A stretch of DNA of 64,000 bases from Gammaproteobacteria bacterium. GTDB lineage: Bacteria; Pseudomonadota; Gammaproteobacteria; Enterobacterales; Alteromonadaceae. The notes beneath the pieces were generated by a model. The model was given only the letters and a program-made list of their open reading frames with translations. It was not told the origin of the DNA and searched no databases. Shown piece after piece: positions 44,311 to 53,221 of the stretch (its first letter is position 1; each line of letters starts with the position of its first letter). The stretch covers positions 1 to 64,000 of the forward strand of contig JAAEZG010000004.1 in NCBI GenBank assembly GCA_018222985.1. Direction: 5' to 3'. Position numbers and translations under genes: made by a program.

Positions 44311-44346
44311 CTGGGCCCTTTGACTGGTATTTGTATAGAATATTAT

Positions 44347-44359
44347 CTATATCATATAG
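44347..44359. promoter_or_regulatory. LysR-type palindrome in the sbtA-lysR intergenic region
   Basis: CTATATCATATAG is a perfect 13-bp palindrome in an AT-rich region between divergent genes, the usual place for a LysR T-N11-A type binding site. It lies 72 bases before the permease ATG. Confidence 0.5.
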
Positions 44360-44430
44360 CGAATATATTTATTTTTAAATATAGACAATCTTGCGCATAC
44401 TAGCGCGCAATTTCATGAAAGGGGATAGCT

Positions 44431-46627: not shown

Positions 46628-47365
46628 CTATAACTTAAATCGCGCATAAAGGGGGTTGTGGTCAGACACCTTACTCGTATCATTCGCGAACGCTTCCTGA
46701 AGGGAAAGGCCACGGTAGAAGATAAAATCGAGCGGGTGCTGTCGGTAAGTTTTAATATGATGTGGGTCAACCATAATGGCTTTTCGCAAACCCAGGCTGC
46801 GACAAAATTGCAGCAACCGCAAGCGGCGTTGACGACTCCATACGTTAAAGTCGCCGGCCACAATAAGTGGCCCTTTGTGTTCGAATATCTCGTGCTTTAT
46901 GAACGCTATTTCTCGAGAAAACTGGTTCGCACGTACAAAGTTCATCGCATGAACGTTAACCACCAATAGCGAACCACCCTCTGCTAATGAGTGATACGAG
47001 AGCATGTAACTTTTGTGTGTTGCAAACATGCCTTCGCGCTTTTTGCTCAGTCGAGGGTGAGCCTCTGTAAAAGCATATTGGCTTGCGGTGAGAACGCCAT
47101 AAACAGAGCGACGCGTTTGCATGTTTGGCGCAATAGCATAAGACCATTGTGGAAGAAGCCAGTTATTTTGGGGTGTTAGCTTTGCCTCTTGAAGCAACAA
47201 AAATAGGCAGGGATAGCGAGCTAGAATGTCAGCCAAAACACGCTGAAAATCTGGCGCTTCGGTAAGCTTCTGCGTATTCCAACACAACACACCAAACTCT
47301 TCACCATGATGAATAGGTTGCTTGTGTATGAACTGGGGAGAAATCACGATTTTAGGTTTAAGCAC
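46628..47365 (-). CDS. Endonuclease/exonuclease/phosphatase family protein
   Basis: A 245-residue member of the EEP (DNase I-like) superfamily. The conserved sites are visible: CWNTQK near 29, QEAK near 59, NVHAMNF near 137, AGDFNVWSR near 168 and SDHNPL near 234. The substrate (nucleic acid, phosphoester or lipid) cannot be told. Translation starts at GTG, with AAGG eight bases before. It marks the last ordinary gene before the accessory region. Confidence 0.85.
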   Translation of the reverse strand: MLKPKIVISPQFIHKQPIHHGEEFGVLCWNTQKLTEAPDFQRVLADILARYPCLFLLLQEAKLTPQNNWLLPQWSYAIAPNMQTRRSVYGVLTASQYAFTEAHPRLSKKREGMFATHKSYMLSYHSLAEGGSLLVVNVHAMNFVRANQFSREIAFIKHEIFEHKGPLIVAGDFNVWSRQRRLRLLQFCRSLGLRKAIMVDPHHIKTYRQHPLDFIFYRGLSLQEAFANDTSKVSDHNPLYARFKL

Positions 47366-47642: not shown

Positions 47643-47768
47643 TATACTAAATTTAGTATAAATAAAATTTATACAAATATAAGAATAAATAAATTTTATA
47701 CTAAATTAAGAATAAACTTGATATATTCAATATTTAGCATAAAGTAAATTTATACGGTATTGCGTATT
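47643..47768. promoter_or_regulatory. Five phased HipB-like operators upstream of hipBA
   Basis: Five 18-bp sites begin at 47643, 47670, 47697, 47724 and 47751, exactly 27 bp apart. Their half sites are TATAC-N8-GTATA, TATAC-N8-GAATA, TATAC-N8-GAATA, TATTC-N8-GCATA and TATAC-N8-GTATT. The first is a perfect 18-bp palindrome. The E. coli HipB operator is TATCC-N8-GGATA, with the same spacing, so HipB autorepression is expected. Confidence 0.75.
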
Positions 47769-47805
47769 TACTATGCCTGTCTGAAAATCGGTATACGAGG
47801 CTGAT

Positions 47806-48072
47806 ATGAAAATTAACACACCAAAAGATCTAGGTGCCATTATCAAGGACAGCAGAAAATCCAAAGGCTGGACTCAAGCTGTTCTAGCTAAGCGCATTGG
47901 TATATATCAAAGAGATATTTCTAACTGTGAAACGAAGCCTGACAAAATCACGATCGATATGCTTATCAAGCTATGTGCGGCACTAGACTTAGAATTTAGT
48001 ATTGATAACCTGATCAAGAATAAACCATTACCACTGAACACACCACTTACGAACAAGCCATTGAGGTTCTAA
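47806..48072 (+). CDS. hipB: HipB antitoxin, HTH repressor
   Basis: An 88-residue Cro/C1-type helix-turn-helix protein (LGAIIKDSRKSKGWTQAVLA, then IGIYQRDISNCE) with the length and C-terminal extension of HipB. It binds and inhibits HipA and represses the operon. The start has CGAGG seven bases upstream. It overlaps the hipA start by one base (TAATG), so both proteins are made together. Five operator-like sites lie 38-163 bases upstream. Confidence 0.9.
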   Translation: MKINTPKDLGAIIKDSRKSKGWTQAVLAKRIGIYQRDISNCETKPDKITIDMLIKLCAALDLEFSIDNLIKNKPLPLNTPLTNKPLRF

Positions 48073-49385
48073 TGGGACGAAAATCGCATACTCGAACACT
48101 CTATTGCTCCATGAACGGATTTCCAGTAGGTAAGTTGTATTTAAAAAAAGGGCGTATGAGCTTTGAGTACGCTCGAGAGTGGTTAGAAGTAGAGGGCGCT
48201 CGTGCTATATCCCTAAGCCTACCGATGCAACGTGCTGAGATAGTGGACGATGCTGTTCATGCTTATTTTGATAATTTGCTGCCAGATTCAGCCGCTATCA
48301 GAGAGCATATCAAAGACCGATTAGGTGCAGATAGTGCAAAACCTTTCGACTTGCTGGCCAAGGTTGGAAAAGACTGTGTAGGTGCGCTCGCATTCACAGA
48401 GGAACCTGCCACAGGAGAAATGCCTTCGCTGTCACTCACACCGTTGTCAGAAGCTGAGGTGGCACAAATTATTAGAGAAACTCGCCTTGAGAAAATGCTG
48501 GGTATGAACTCAGACGATGACTTCAGAATTTCTCTTGCAGGCGCCCAAGAAAAGACAGCACTGACTCTGTGGAGCGGTAACTGGTGTCGACCTCACGACG
48601 CAACGCCAACCACGCATATATTCAAGCCACCAATTCTTCATCACGAAAGTTTGGGAATAGACTTATCTTCGAGTGTCGATAACGAGTGGTTCTGCCAGAG
48701 ATTTATGAAAAACTTGGGCATGGATGTCGCCCCTTGTGAAATTATGCAGTTTGAAGATCAAAAGGTGTTGGTTGTGGAGCGTTTTGATCGCAGAATTAAT
48801 GAGGACAATATTCTCCGACTTCCACAGGAGGATATTTGCCAGGCCCTAGGGAAAGTGAGTGGCTCTAAATATGAGGAAAAAGGCGGCCCAAGTTCTCAAC
48901 AGGTCATGGACTTGCTGTCCGGTTCAAGCAACGCATATGAAGATAGGCTCGAGTTTTTGCGCGTGCAAATCGTATTTTGGTTGCTTGCTGCCATTGATGG
49001 GCATGCAAAAAACTTCAGTATTGCGCTAAATCAGAATGGGTACCGACTCACACCGTTTTATGACGTGTTGAGCGCCTACCCCTATTTTGGGCAAGGGAAC
49101 ATTCAGCCAAAAAAAATAAAGATGGCAATGAAAGTTCATAGCAAAAATACACACTACAAATGGCACGAAATTGTGCCAAGGCACTGGCCAGAACACGGCA
49201 GGAGACACGGTATAGATAAGGACCAAACACTTGCTATGATGGCTTCCTTAGATGACAAGGTAGAGTCAGCTTTAAAAACCACACTCAATGAAGCAAATGA
49301 GCTTTTTGATACGACGGTAGGAGAGGTAATAACCGAACGCACCCTCACTTGCTTGAGCAAAATAACAAGGTTTCTAAACGGATAA
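48072..49385 (+). CDS. hipA: HipA serine/threonine-kinase toxin
   Basis: A 437-residue kinase of the long, E. coli-like HipA type. E. coli HipA inactivates glutamyl-tRNA synthetase by phosphorylation and promotes persistence. The autophosphorylated loop is kept as RISLAGAQEKTAL near 154, followed by THIFKPP for ATP binding. The catalytic segment AIDGHAKNFSI lies near 309, and PFYDVLSAYP carries the metal Asp near 330. All key sites appear intact. It is the first part of the accessory region and ends 88 bases before the tRNA fragment. Confidence 0.93.
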   Translation: MGRKSHTRTLYCSMNGFPVGKLYLKKGRMSFEYAREWLEVEGARAISLSLPMQRAEIVDDAVHAYFDNLLPDSAAIREHIKDRLGADSAKPFDLLAKVGKDCVGALAFTEEPATGEMPSLSLTPLSEAEVAQIIRETRLEKMLGMNSDDDFRISLAGAQEKTALTLWSGNWCRPHDATPTTHIFKPPILHHESLGIDLSSSVDNEWFCQRFMKNLGMDVAPCEIMQFEDQKVLVVERFDRRINEDNILRLPQEDICQALGKVSGSKYEEKGGPSSQQVMDLLSGSSNAYEDRLEFLRVQIVFWLLAAIDGHAKNFSIALNQNGYRLTPFYDVLSAYPYFGQGNIQPKKIKMAMKVHSKNTHYKWHEIVPRHWPEHGRRHGIDKDQTLAMMASLDDKVESALKTTLNEANELFDTTVGEVITERTLTCLSKITRFLNG

Positions 49386-49473: not shown

Positions 49474-49524
49474 TGGCGCACTCCGACAGGAGTCGAACCT
49501 GTGGCCTCCGCCTCCGGAGGGCGG
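49474..49524 (-). repeat. 3' fragment of tRNA-Arg(CCG): integration scar
   Basis: The minus strand reads as the 3' 51 bases of a tRNA-Arg with anticodon CCG, from the anticodon stem (CCGCCCTCCGGAGGCGG) through the T-arm (ACAGGTTCGACTCCTGT) to the acceptor end and CCA. The D-arm and the 5' acceptor strand are not present in the adjoining sequence. Partial tRNA 3' ends of this kind are duplicated when an element integrates by a tyrosine integrase. The intact tRNA is not in this window, and no integrase gene is visible here. Confidence 0.75.
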
Positions 49525-49920
49525 TCACGGGTTCGGTGGTAAATCGTTAAAGCTAGGCGTAGCAAGGGATTGAACGGTGTTTTGACTTTCTGTGTTGCGT
49601 CGAAATCGACACTTTTGAGACCGTTTAATGACAAAATTGGTCACAGGATACCGACTCTGAAATTTCAATTTTTGACCTTTGCCTCGCGACAAAAAATTCT
49701 GAATCGCCGGAAAAATCTGAGTTTTTAGGTGGAAAAAATTACACCTTTTTGACTTGGTTTTAGGCCGGAAGGAACAGGAATTATTTAGTGGAATGATAAT
49801 TTATCTAAATCCTCGATAGACTTTTGGGTTTGGAATTTTATAAAAATTAGCACCATTAGTACTGACATAATTGAAAATATAAACTAACCTGTAGTTTGAA
49901 ATTATTAACAGGTTGGTACC
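49525..49920. other. Gene-free remnant sequence before abiE
   Basis: About 400 AT-rich bases without a convincing gene. A weak hairpin with a T-run (AGGTG / CACCT, 49727-49750) could end a transcript. The rest is unassigned and may be eroded island sequence. Confidence 0.45.
49886..49914. promoter_or_regulatory. Inverted repeat, candidate AbiEi operator
   Basis: AACCTGT (49886-49892) and ACAGGTT (49908-49914) are perfect inverted arms 15 bases apart, ending seven bases before the abiEi start. AbiEi antitoxins repress their operon by binding inverted repeats, so this is a likely target. Confidence 0.5.
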
Positions 49921-50691
49921 ATGAGTTCGGATATATCATCAAAATTAAACCGGCTGCTGAGCTCCCAACCATTGGGCGTCGTGCTCTGTTCATCTTGGCT
50001 TGTTGAAAATGGCTACAGCCTCGACTTGCAGCAACGCTATAAAAAAAGCCAGTGGTTTGAGAGCATCGGGGCGGGAGCATTAATACGCTATGGCGACCAC
50101 GTGGATTATCTCGGTGGGGTGTACGCCATGCAAACTCAGCTCGGCTTATCGTTACATCCTGGCGGGAGGACTGCCCTAGGGTTGCAAGGGAAAGCGCATT
50201 ATTTAGAGCTTTCCCCAAAGCACGTGCAGCTATTTGGCGCCCATGGCGAGCATGTGCCTTTGTGGTTTAAAAAACAAGACTGGAGCGTTAACGTCAAGTA
50301 TACGTTATCCAACTTTCTGCCGGCGGAAATCGGTTTAACCGAAATACCGCATAAACAGTTCACGGTTAAAGTATCAGAGCCAGCGCGAGCCATCATGGAG
50401 TGTCTGTATCTTGCACCCAAGTCACAATCGTTACTGGAAGCTTATGAGCTCATGGAGGGCCTCAATAACTTACGGCCCGCATCTGTACAAAAGTTATTAG
50501 AAGCCTGCAATTCAATAAAAGTGAAACGCTTATTTCTTTATCTCGCCGAGAAAGCAAATCACGACTGGATGAAATACCTTGATTTAAACAGAGTAAACCT
50601 AGGCTCGGGCAAGCGTGCGATAGTAACCAGCGGTGTTTACATCCCGAAATATCAAATCACTGTACCAAAGGAACTGGAGTCAATGGAATGA
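49921..50691 (+). CDS. AbiEi-type antitoxin (type IV toxin-antitoxin)
   Basis: A 256-residue AbiEi-family protein. It has an N-terminal winged-helix part (LVENGYSLDLQQRYKKSQWF near 27) and a C-terminal domain with PARAIMECLYLAP near 155. AbiEi represses its own operon and neutralises AbiEii without direct contact. The gene overlaps abiEii by four bases. AbiE systems give phage defence by abortive infection and stabilise mobile elements. Confidence 0.85.
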   Translation: MSSDISSKLNRLLSSQPLGVVLCSSWLVENGYSLDLQQRYKKSQWFESIGAGALIRYGDHVDYLGGVYAMQTQLGLSLHPGGRTALGLQGKAHYLELSPKHVQLFGAHGEHVPLWFKKQDWSVNVKYTLSNFLPAEIGLTEIPHKQFTVKVSEPARAIMECLYLAPKSQSLLEAYELMEGLNNLRPASVQKLLEACNSIKVKRLFLYLAEKANHDWMKYLDLNRVNLGSGKRAIVTSGVYIPKYQITVPKELESME

Positions 50692-51587
50692 ATGAAGCTT
50701 ACAGAAAACAGGTGAAGTTGCTACTCGATGTGTTGCCGGAAATCGCGAAAGAGGATTGCTTTGCGATGCATGGCGGTACAGCCATCAATTTATTTTTGCA
50801 GGACATGCCAAGGCTTTCTGTAGATATTGATTTGACTTATGTTGGGTTAGAAGTGCGCGCGGAAGCACTCGTAGCAATCAATGCTGCGCTACTGCGAATA
50901 GAAGATCGTGTTGATAAGTTGCGAGAAACGATTAGGGTTCAGCACAAGCCGAATGTGTGTAAGCTTCAAATGAGTGAGCACGGCATTCAAATAAAAGTTG
51001 AGGTGAACATGGTTGGGCGCGGCTTACTTGGCCCTGCAAAAAAACTACCACTTTGTTCGGCAGCACAAGAGCAATACAACGTATTTTGCACGATGCCGGT
51101 GGTGCCATTGAGTCAGCTTTACGGTGGGAAAATCTGCGCCGCGCTGGATAGACAGCACCCGCGAGACCTTTTTGGCACGAAACTATTGTTGGAAAACATA
51201 GGGTTTACTGATGAAATCAAACGGGGCTTCATATTCGCACTGATTAGTAGCAATCGACCAACAAATGAAATGCTTGCCCCCAACTTACTTGACCAAAGGG
51301 CTGCTTTTGAACACCAGTTTGAAGGGATGAGTAATGTTGTATTTACTTATGCTGATTTTGAAGCGACACGAGTCAAGTTGATAGATACGATACGTCGGAG
51401 TTTGAACGAAACAGATAAGCAATTTCTGCTTCGTTTTAATCAATTAGAACCGGACTGGTCTGTTTATGATTATCATCAATTTCCATCGGTAAAGTGGAAG
51501 TTGATGAATTTGGCGAAGTTTAAAAAGGAGAGCGCTGAGGTTTATCAGCTGCAGATGGAAAAGCTTGCCGACTTGTTAGTGAGTTGA
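50688..51587 (+). CDS. AbiEii nucleotidyltransferase toxin
   Basis: A 299-residue DNA-polymerase-beta-type nucleotidyltransferase of the AbiEii family. The active-site motif is MHGGTAINLF (GGT at 29-31) with the two metal Asp in LSVDIDL (46 and 48). The later family stretch LYGGKICAALDRQHPRDLFG is present near 145. The toxin transfers nucleotides, probably to a tRNA acceptor end. It overlaps abiEi by four bases and the truncated DUF262 frame by four. Confidence 0.9.
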   Translation: MNEAYRKQVKLLLDVLPEIAKEDCFAMHGGTAINLFLQDMPRLSVDIDLTYVGLEVRAEALVAINAALLRIEDRVDKLRETIRVQHKPNVCKLQMSEHGIQIKVEVNMVGRGLLGPAKKLPLCSAAQEQYNVFCTMPVVPLSQLYGGKICAALDRQHPRDLFGTKLLLENIGFTDEIKRGFIFALISSNRPTNEMLAPNLLDQRAAFEHQFEGMSNVVFTYADFEATRVKLIDTIRRSLNETDKQFLLRFNQLEPDWSVYDYHQFPSVKWKLMNLAKFKKESAEVYQLQMEKLADLLVS

Positions 51588-53221
51588 GCATTCCATTTAT
51601 AACTGCCCCGATTTTTCGGGGGGATTACAGTGGAGCTGTCGCAGCACATCAACAAATACTAATCGATGGCCAACAACGAGTAACAGCGTTGAGGGCCGCA
51701 ATTGCGGGACAAACGGTGATTGGTAACCGTTATGAAAAAAAGCGGATCGCTATTTCGTTTAATCCTGTAACGGAAGAGTTTGCGACGAGAACGCCAGCGA
51801 TTACCAATAGCTCCCAATGGATTCACGATATTAGTGAGTTTTTTTCCGGTTCCAGTCAGCTGAGCTTTCTGAGAAATTATTTCGCTAAAAATCCAGATGT
51901 TGATCAAGACCAAGTTGAACAAGCCTCGGCGAGACTCGCCGCTGTTGAGCATGCGCAAGTAGGTGTCATTTCATTGGCAGACGATTTGGATGTAGAAACG
52001 GTTGCAGAGATCTTCGTTCGGATCAATGCCAAAGGTGTTCCGCTATCAAGTGCTGATTTTGTAATGAGTAAAATTGCCACGTACGGCAATGAAGGGCGCA
52101 ATCTTCGGAAGCTAATTGATTATTTCTGTCACCTGACGGTCTCTGGGCACGCATTTGATGATATTAAAGAGAACGATGAAGAGTTCGCAAAATCGGAGCA
52201 TATTAGGAAAATTCAGTGGTTAAGTAATCAAACGGACGAGTTATTTCAACCTGACTATACCGATGTCATTCGTATTGCCGGTCTAGTTGGATTTAGTCGT
52301 GGTAAAGCCGGAGCAATTGTTAGTGAGCTATCCGGGCTTGACCCACAAACGAGAAAAATTGATGAAAATCTTATTCCAGCCGCGTATTCTCGTTTTGCGG
52401 AAGCATTAGATCTACTTGTGAGTAAGACGCATCTCGAGCGATTTGTAATGATGATCAAGTCTGCTGGGTATATCGATGCCAGCATGATTGGGTCAAAGAA
52501 TGCATTGAATTTCGCATATGCACTTTACCTGCGCCTTCGGTTGGACGATCAGCTGAATGAGGGAGAGAGAGCAAGAATTGTAAAACGCTGGTTCGTTATG
52601 ACATTACTGACCGGAAGAGCCGTGGGAAGCTTTGAATCCACGTGGGAAACTGACTTACGTCGTATTAAGGACCACGGTGCGGAACAATACTTACGCACTC
52701 TTGAAGCCTCAGTTCTAAGTGATAGTTTTTGGGATGTAACTTTAGTTCAGGAGCTCGAGTCACCAAGCAAGCGTAGTCCTGCATTCCAAACATATTTAGC
52801 AGCAAGAGTTGCAAAAGGAGGGCGGGGATTCCTTTCAAAGTCGATTAATATCGCACAGATGATCGAGGGGCATGGCGATATGCACCACATAATTCCCAAG
52901 AATCACCTTATTCGTCATGGATTCCCGAAACAGGGAGATTACAACCAGATTGCAAACTTTGCGTTGACAGAAACAGCAATCAACATCGCGATTAAAGACC
53001 TACCACCGAAAGAATACATGTTAATGGTTCTTGAACAGATTGAATCCGGAAATTTAAGACTTGGCGAAATTTGTGATCGAGAAGATTTACAGAGAAATTT
53101 AGCCGAAAATGCTATTCCTGAGCTCATATTCAATACTACCGCAGAAAATTACAAAGAGTTCCTAGCGGGACGCCGTTTTTTAATGGCAACAATGATCAAA
53201 GAGTATTATGACAGCCTTTGA
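51584..53221 (+). pseudogene. 5'-truncated DUF262/DUF1524 (GmrSD-like) gene
   Basis: The reading frame encodes 545 residues. It keeps the DUF262 signature ILIDGQQRVTALRAA, but DGQQR falls at residues 28-32 rather than near 70-90 as in complete members, so the first part of the domain is missing. The rest looks intact to the end, including LSSADFVMSKIA and a DUF1524-like nuclease motif DMHHIIPKNHL near 430. GmrSD and related proteins are modification-dependent restriction enzymes; the DUF262 part hydrolyses NTP. The only start is a TTG in the abiEii tail. It may be dead or remain as an N-terminally shortened protein. Confidence 0.72.

Follow-up and report, generated by a model that had tools for sequence, protein, structure and literature searches.

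A putative autoregulatory operator array with a constant 27-bp step upstream of a chromosomal E. coli-type hipBA operon

The hipB-hipA operon and its upstream dyads

The window, the whole 64,000-nucleotide stretch of DNA that was analysed, carries an intact hipB-hipA operon on its forward strand. The upstream gene, hipB (47806..48072, + strand), encodes a predicted 88-aa antitoxin/repressor of the Cro/C1 HTH type (HTH_3, 5.9e-9) whose best matches among solved structures are E. coli HipB. By direct reading, GAGG at 47797..47800 (+) is its likely ribosome-binding site. This small HTH gene lies directly 5' of the kinase gene hipA (48072..49385, +), whose start overlaps the hipB stop. The 437-aa hipA product is a full-length Ser/Thr kinase, the predicted toxin, with both Couple_hipA (PF13657, 1.5e-25) and HipA_C (PF07804, 1.4e-52), and it matches the E. 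coli HipA structure at 1.5e-95. In the aligned protein, the residues corresponding to the E. coli autophosphorylation serine S150 and the catalytic aspartates D309 and D332 are identical, and E. coli G22, P86, D88 and D291 are all four present. The C-terminal residue of the window HipB is F, not W, as it is in relatives L004-L008 and L010-L015, whose sequences were printed to the end; a passage of PMC3376134 terms the C-terminal W universally conserved.

Direct reading of the DNA 5' of hipB gave five 18-bp dyads of the TATNC-N8-GNATA type, set at a constant 27-bp step. Sites were scored as matches to TATAC-N8-GTATA over the 10 half-site bases, and all are given for the + strand. Site 1 (47643..47660) is TATAC-TAAATTTA-GTATA, as a whole TATACTAAATTTAGTATA, a perfect 18-bp palindrome scoring 10/10. 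Sites 2 (47670..47687, TATAC-AAATATAA-GAATA) and 3 (47697..47714, TATAC-TAAATTAA-GAATA) each score 9/10. Site 4 (47724..47741, TATTC-AATATTTA-GCATA) scores 8/10 and stands in register -82 from the hipB start, and site 5 (47751..47768, TATAC-GGTATTGC-GTATT), which ends in T, scores 9/10 in register -55. The sequence-only reading had placed five sites at 47643, 47670, 47697, 47724 and 47751, 27 bp apart, with the first a perfect palindrome and the rest at eight or nine matches, and had assigned them to a hipBA module; all of this is borne out, the last by the domains of the two proteins. Its count of sites was right in exceeding the four of E. coli, but the registers number six, not five. The unlisted register, at 47778..47795 and -28 from hipB, holds a degenerate site (7/10), TGTCT-GAAAATCG-GTATA or TGTCTGAAAATCGGTATA, in which the right half GTATA is kept and the left half has decayed. 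It had also noted a half-site unlike that of E. coli, and indeed no window site carries the exact TATCC (TATAC is found instead, and TATTC in site 4), although both have an N8 core. Because the half-site is TATAC, we keep the window sites apart from the E. coli consensus TATCC-N8-GGATA.

Matches of at least 9/10 occur at four positions in the 64-kb window, all inside the array, and matches of at least 8/10 at 20 positions, five inside the array and 15 outside. A search free of both motif and period joined all six registers into a single array, 18 bp wide with a 27-bp period (z 16.0). The array score was 32.5, versus a mean of 10.8 (sd 1.4, maximum 17.3) for 1000 dinucleotide-preserving shuffles of the same stretch, none of which attained it. 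The 27-bp period was recovered by Tandem Repeats Finder as well. The registers scored beyond the two ends hold no site, with 2-4/10 for three upstream of 47643 and 4 and 1/10 for two past 47795. With at least three dyads at one fixed step, and a score above shuffles, the array belongs to the phase-locked 26-28 bp class. Calculated with 10.5 bp per turn, each step amounts to about 2.57 helical turns, so that adjacent sites lie on different faces of the DNA. Elsewhere in the window, four 8/10 matches (44320, 44334, 44348 and 44382) fall in an AT-rich gap (44320-44399) that separates a gene judged LysR-like by eye from a divergent gene; these probably reflect composition.

A -35-like hexamer, TTGATA (47718..47723, +), lies in the third linker, and a -10-like hexamer, TAAAGT (47740..47745, +), overlaps the right end of site 4. 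Both are consensus matches, and site 4 fills the spacer of the resulting promoter-like match, TTGATA-16-TAAAGT (47718-47745). Such matches are at chance level in the region, two equal ones being found against 1.9 expected in shuffles. TTGATA-16-TAAAGT is preferred as the candidate promoter because, by eye, a linker ends in TTGATT or TTGCTT in 12 of the 19 distinct relatives listed, in seven cases before -82/-83, in four before -54/-55 and in one before -76. HipB would bind the window dyads and repress the operon, and the array most likely serves the autorepression of a chromosomal hipBA operon of the E. coli type.

Directly 3' of hipBA and on the same strand, 49921-53221 encodes AbiEi and AbiEii (type IV toxin-antitoxin) together with a protein that matches HEC-05, a PADLOC candidate model; the group may form a small defence island. 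Just 3' of hipA, the minus strand of 49474-49536 resembles by eye the 3' half of a tRNA gene and is a possible attachment-site remnant; ARAGORN found no tRNA in the 64-kb window.

Operator spacing across hipBA loci

Among 21 loci obtained from named genomes, 12 are close to the window, with 53-72% HipB identity, and come from Alteromonas, Aliiglaciecola, Idiomarina, Salinimonas and MAGs. The list of close relatives has 24 entries, 19 of them distinct (five appear in duplicate from two collections), with HipA identities of 59-87%. At least two sites with 7 or 8 of 8 matches stand in exact 27-bp registers in 18 of the 19 distinct relatives listed, and in 12 of the 19 the final site lies 27-29 bp before the start codon, a register that window site 6 matches. 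The sequence-only reading had counted on homologous loci being free of irregular spacing. Such spacing was sought, and the expectation held for the 18 but not for L011, where a single site is intact and a second is one base out. In L015 the last site is displaced by one base.

The wider survey covered 204 hipA loci, including the window and E. coli K-12, taken from named genomes and from samples, drawn evenly from larger groups, of the window's class, order and family. Of 82 rows in the first genome-sample listing 70 were taken as loci, and three partial rows were left out of one of two further samples and a few partial rows out of the other. A hipB gene was present at 201 of the 204 loci (L175, L177 and L178, where none was found, were dropped), giving 194 unique upstreams. 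The detector accepted widths of 14-22, a period free over 20-40 or 20-80 bp and at most six sites, and it may centre periodic palindromes on the linker and not on the site (L084, L167). By our choice, significance meant z >6 and a score above the best of 20 shuffles; labels for the tree used z >6 alone. This rule is strict, since E. coli K-12 itself, at z 5.2 with two sites, stays below it.

With the period free over 20-80 bp, significant arrays were found in 144 of the 194 unique hipB upstreams, 143 of them at 26-28 bp (27 bp, 71; 28 bp, 68; 26 bp, 4; the remaining one at 30 bp), and 50 upstreams had no significant array in this range. Over 20-40 bp the number was 143 of 194, at 28 (70), 27 (69), 26 (3) and 30 bp (1). 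When the same 20-40 bp search was run on 226-bp control pieces, none of 281 window tiles was significant or even exceeded z 6, and none of 194 hipA coding segments was significant; the best periods in shuffles had a nearly flat distribution. The window locus is not alone in its fixed period, as significant hipBA arrays mostly step by 26-28 bp, and by 49-51 bp in distant HipA families. In length the window array is among the longest here, the detector maximum of six sites being reached by three of 184 arrays. One of the three, L245, steps by 27 bp through all six, has additional sites in register 27 and 54 bp past the array, and is possibly the longest. The literature searched, in which coverage was weak and the key structural work lay outside, held no description of family-wide operator periods, and the breadth of the fixed-spacing rule across hipBA loci appears to be new.

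HipB-like loci of relatives, a partly overlapping sample, gave significant arrays at 17 of 20 loci with HipA (27-28 bp, 15; 30 bp, 1; 32 bp, 1) and at two of nine loci without detected HipA (L026 at 27 bp and L043 at 54 bp). Several of the individual loci merit a remark. L026 has no detected HipA in the flank examined and an upstream protein that is IstB-like by eye, and its HipB may repress in trans. The 32-bp array, at L048, lies in a repetitive-looking stretch and is perhaps plain tandem repeats. L093 has, beside its 27-bp TATAC sites, a second array of ACAAC..GTTGT at 30-bp steps, some 150-210 bp 5' of hipB and perhaps serving another gene. L052, from another distant HipA family, has three ACAAC..GTTGT sites at 30 bp, possibly a third period class.

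More distant loci were added from the phylum. Of the 76 rows listed at this level, 38 were analysed, 13 were already included and the remaining 25, for the most part weak or partial matches, were set aside. Arrays were significant at 30 of the 38, with periods of 27 (25), 26 (2) and 49-50 bp (3). Loci with distant full-length HipA, chosen among the matches listed, came in batches of 17 and 20, of which 16 and 19 had hipB. Here z exceeded 6 at nine of 16 and five of 19 loci, and every period was 49, 50 or 51 bp; because the second batch favoured the domain length that went with arrays in the first, the share of loci with arrays is biased, and the period is not. There were 23 split-HipA candidates, 21 once L287 and L289, which lack hipB, were removed. 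Three of these (L269, L279 and L288), at which a canonical hipB precedes what resembles an interrupted hipA gene, were set apart from 18 hipBST-like loci. None of the 18 had a significant array with the period free over 20-80 bp, and the sole significant array among the 21 split loci, at 28 bp, was that of the interrupted-looking L279.

To relate period to toxin family, the arrays were placed on a HipA tree of 261 proteins, with six HipA of <350 aa and the 21 split ones left off. The 184 scored arrays on the tree have periods of 26 (5), 27 (94), 28 (69) and 49-51 bp (16). The division between 26-28 and 49-51 bp takes a single change, versus a minimum of 13 in 200 shuffles, and that between 27 and 28 bp takes seven, versus a shuffled minimum of 44. 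The operator period follows the HipA (toxin) family. Because HipB and HipA co-evolve, the family signal, as read from sequence alone, is not assignable to HipA over HipB. S150, D309 and D332 are invariant in both period classes. The 26-28 class preserves G22, P86, D88 and D291 in 143, 103, 144 and 162 of its 168 HipA, the 48-51 class in 3, 0, 0 and 1 of its 16. At 22, 86 and 88 these counts may combine true divergence with alignment error, the N-terminal alignment of the distant HipA being poor. We take P86 and D88 to be high-persister positions of E. coli HipA. The hipA7 changes are described as G22S and D291A (PMC3376134, PMC6581861), and passages of PMC7029023 suggest that G22S interferes with the dimerisation of promoter-bound HipA. 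According to part of PMC6581861, the HipA-HipA dimer residues apparently differ in HipS.

Both period classes occur in the genome from which the window comes. This genome has five Couple_hipA matches among the matches listed, and two besides the window were examined. One (L290, contig C6 near 156232) is a hipBA locus with three TCCTA-N6-TAGGA sites at a 49-bp step; at the other (L291), no array was detected upstream. The presence of 27- and 49-bp steps in one genome provides concrete targets for experiment.

The spacing is far more constant than the sequence of the sites. The 167 even-width arrays of the 26-28 class have 51 different half-site consensus 6-mers, and over the same 156 rows the HipA tree requires at least 69 changes of half-site and eight of period. 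Consensus noise and linker-centred arrays inflate both the 51 classes and the figure of 69. In 26-28 bp arrays the linkers of adjacent units are 0.35 identical, versus 0.27 expected, and the half-sites 0.85 identical, a value raised by the search itself. When 186 scored loci were clustered at 70% HipA identity, 88 of 91 clusters had a single period, and the mixed ones were two with 49 and 50 bp and one with 27 and 28 bp; at 50% identity, nine of 24 clusters mixed neighbouring periods. Ten extra sites were found beside arrays of at least three sites, seven at 27-28 bp and single ones at 21, 49 and 54 bp, and six of the ten were one base off the step of their own array. Apart from the 39-bp step of E. 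coli, helical-phase jumps find no support among these ten. At L058 a step of 27 is followed by one of 28. The periods 26, 27, 28, 39, 49-51 and the published 71 bp all fall, by arithmetic at 10.5 bp per turn, at about 0.48-0.86 of a turn, although few of these classes are independent. When HipB residues were compared with half-site bases, with relatedness not removed, the top two mutual-information values fell at positions 40 and 38 in E. coli HipB numbering, which presumably lie in the recognition helix. Tests restricted to independent pairs had at most five usable pairs each and were underpowered.

Explanations of the constant step

We read the locus as an E. coli-type hipBA autorepression array whose 27-bp step is fixed by touching HipBA neighbours, and we put the probability of this reading as a whole at about 0.6. 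Each 18-bp dyad would take one HipB dimer, either alone or carrying two HipA. Since site 4 sits between the -35-like and -10-like elements, its occupancy would shut the promoter, and sites 1-3 upstream and 5-6 downstream would act as added cooperative units. The exact 27-bp step would be kept because adjacent HipBA complexes touch in a fixed geometry, likeliest through HipA N-subdomain 1. Up to six complexes would in this way form a short chain, with the operon repressed and HipA held inactive. In Schumacher's E. coli work, promoter-bound HipBA neighbours reportedly contact each other through this same N-subdomain 1. Computation shows the array with its significance, its persistence in relatives and the link of period to HipA family. 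From these we infer HipB binding at the window sites, cooperation between neighbours and contact through HipA, and HipA bridging of adjacent complexes is the likeliest cause of the fixed step. Bridging would account for the way period goes with HipA family, for the two structurally characterised classes and for the absence of arrays where HipA is split. The multimeric HipBA filament on phased sites that the sequence-only reading favoured is partly supported.

The spacing might instead be set by HipB alone, through DNA bending, cooperativity by way of DNA shape or HipB-HipB contact, with HipA riding along. This is unlikely, but a serious contender. In E. coli, HipB occupies its four operators cooperatively and introduces a DNA bend of about 70 degrees (PMC3376134, PMC3920265), and such cooperativity may not depend on a HipA bridge. 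The 27-bp array of L026, where no HipA was detected beside the HipB-like gene, fits this reading too. The single change that divides the period classes along HipA families argues weakly for a role of HipA instead, weakly because HipB families split likewise, and so does the different arrangement, implied by passages of PMC10627512, of the two HipBA types with structures.

We consider it quite improbable that the period is under no selection of its own and survives from the tandem duplication of 27-bp units. The window does contain three in-register 54-nt copies at 70-72% identity to the first, and Tandem Repeats Finder scores a 27-bp tandem repeat; for these reasons the upstream extension of the array may have grown by duplication. 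However, the linkers of adjacent units are nearly unrelated, neutral linkers would gain and lose bases whereas 18 of 19 distinct relatives keep exact registers, and steps of 26-28 bp are common to different half-sites. It is also very improbable that the array serves a regulator other than HipB. A gene on the opposite strand (46628-47365) does start 278 bp from site 1, but significant arrays lie 5' of most hipB genes surveyed, the period differs between module families, and the two strongest residue-base couplings fall at HipB positions 40 and 38, in a test from which relatedness was not removed. Chance matches in an AT-rich promoter are scarcely credible. The half-site is AT-rich and reaches 8/10 at 15 positions outside the array, but this reading is already contradicted by the shuffles, the recurrence of the registers in relatives and the window tiles.

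Behind the touching-neighbour reading lies a broader and more tentative one, to which we give somewhat less than even odds: that operator spacing is a genomic record of how a TA complex packs on DNA, the chain being a DNA-templated store of inactive kinase that is under selection, with the step set for each HipA family. The steps would be 26-28 bp for E. coli-type HipA and 49-51 bp for S. oneidensis-type and related HipA, with none in the split-HipA loci examined. At issue is whether the HipA-HipA promoter contact of E. coli is general to these toxins or peculiar to one locus. If spacing is kept for HipA-HipA contact, genomes already hold much of the answer, and the geometry of a DNA-bound complex may be readable from promoter sequence. 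In the loci examined the step is conserved far better than operator sequence and shifts with the toxin family, which makes the proposal testable through single linkers.

Comparison with known HipB-regulated systems

In Legionella pneumophila, three HipB operators at even spacing precede the hipBST operon, and in the passages concerned the authors contrast the Legionella binding with E. coli cooperativity (PMC10653801). This system differs from the window in its split HipA, in partly lost symmetry and in gaps of 53 bp between 18-nt sites, by arithmetic a 71-bp step. For the Caulobacter crescentus hipBA1 and hipBA2 promoters, the intervals between inverted repeats were said to fit the E. coli higher-order HipA/HipB/promoter structure (PMC7029023); the remark concerns two loci, and its passages give no period, family comparison or statistics. 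PMC8262856 classifies HipA kinases, and its passages on operators give no periods.

The S. oneidensis type (PDB 4PU3; L298, L303 and L333) shares with the window a hipB-hipA operon with an evenly spaced dyad array, but its dyad is GTGTA-N6-TACAC at a 50-bp step in place of the window's own dyad at 27 bp. HipA of L333 matches 4PU3 with 748 bits. The HipB of that locus matches chain D of 4PU3, to which HipB of L298 reads as near-identical. The HipA distance is large, with 95 bits for window HipA versus 4PU3 and 80-85 bits for E. coli HipA versus L333. In passages of PMC10627512, E. coli HipBA packs two HipA head-to-tail around a HipB dimer, and HipBST is markedly unlike E. coli HipBA and resembles S. 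oneidensis HipBA. Since HipBST is unlike the first and like the second, the E. coli and S. oneidensis types are, by implication, arranged differently. Despite the likeness of HipBST to S. oneidensis HipBA, the split loci have no 50-bp array and Legionella steps by 71 bp, so that the period does not follow from arrangement alone.

The closest of these comparisons is with E. coli K-12, where O1-O4 (TATCC-N8-GGATA) are, like the window sites, 18-bp dyads with an N8 core upstream of hipB. E. coli HipB represses by binding such dyads, and the O1O2 oligo printed in the same source has 28 bp, by our count, between site starts (PMC3376134). The K-12 locus (L003) has four sites at irregular steps of 28-39-28 bp, whereas the window has six registers at 27 bp throughout. 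The middle K-12 step of 39 bp exceeds its 28-bp neighbours by 11 bp, about one helical turn. HipB positions 38, 40 and 41 are Y, R and D in the window and K, A and T in E. coli. The two promoters share a TTGA-type hexamer directly 5' of one site, TTGACT before the -67 site of E. coli and TTGATA in the window.
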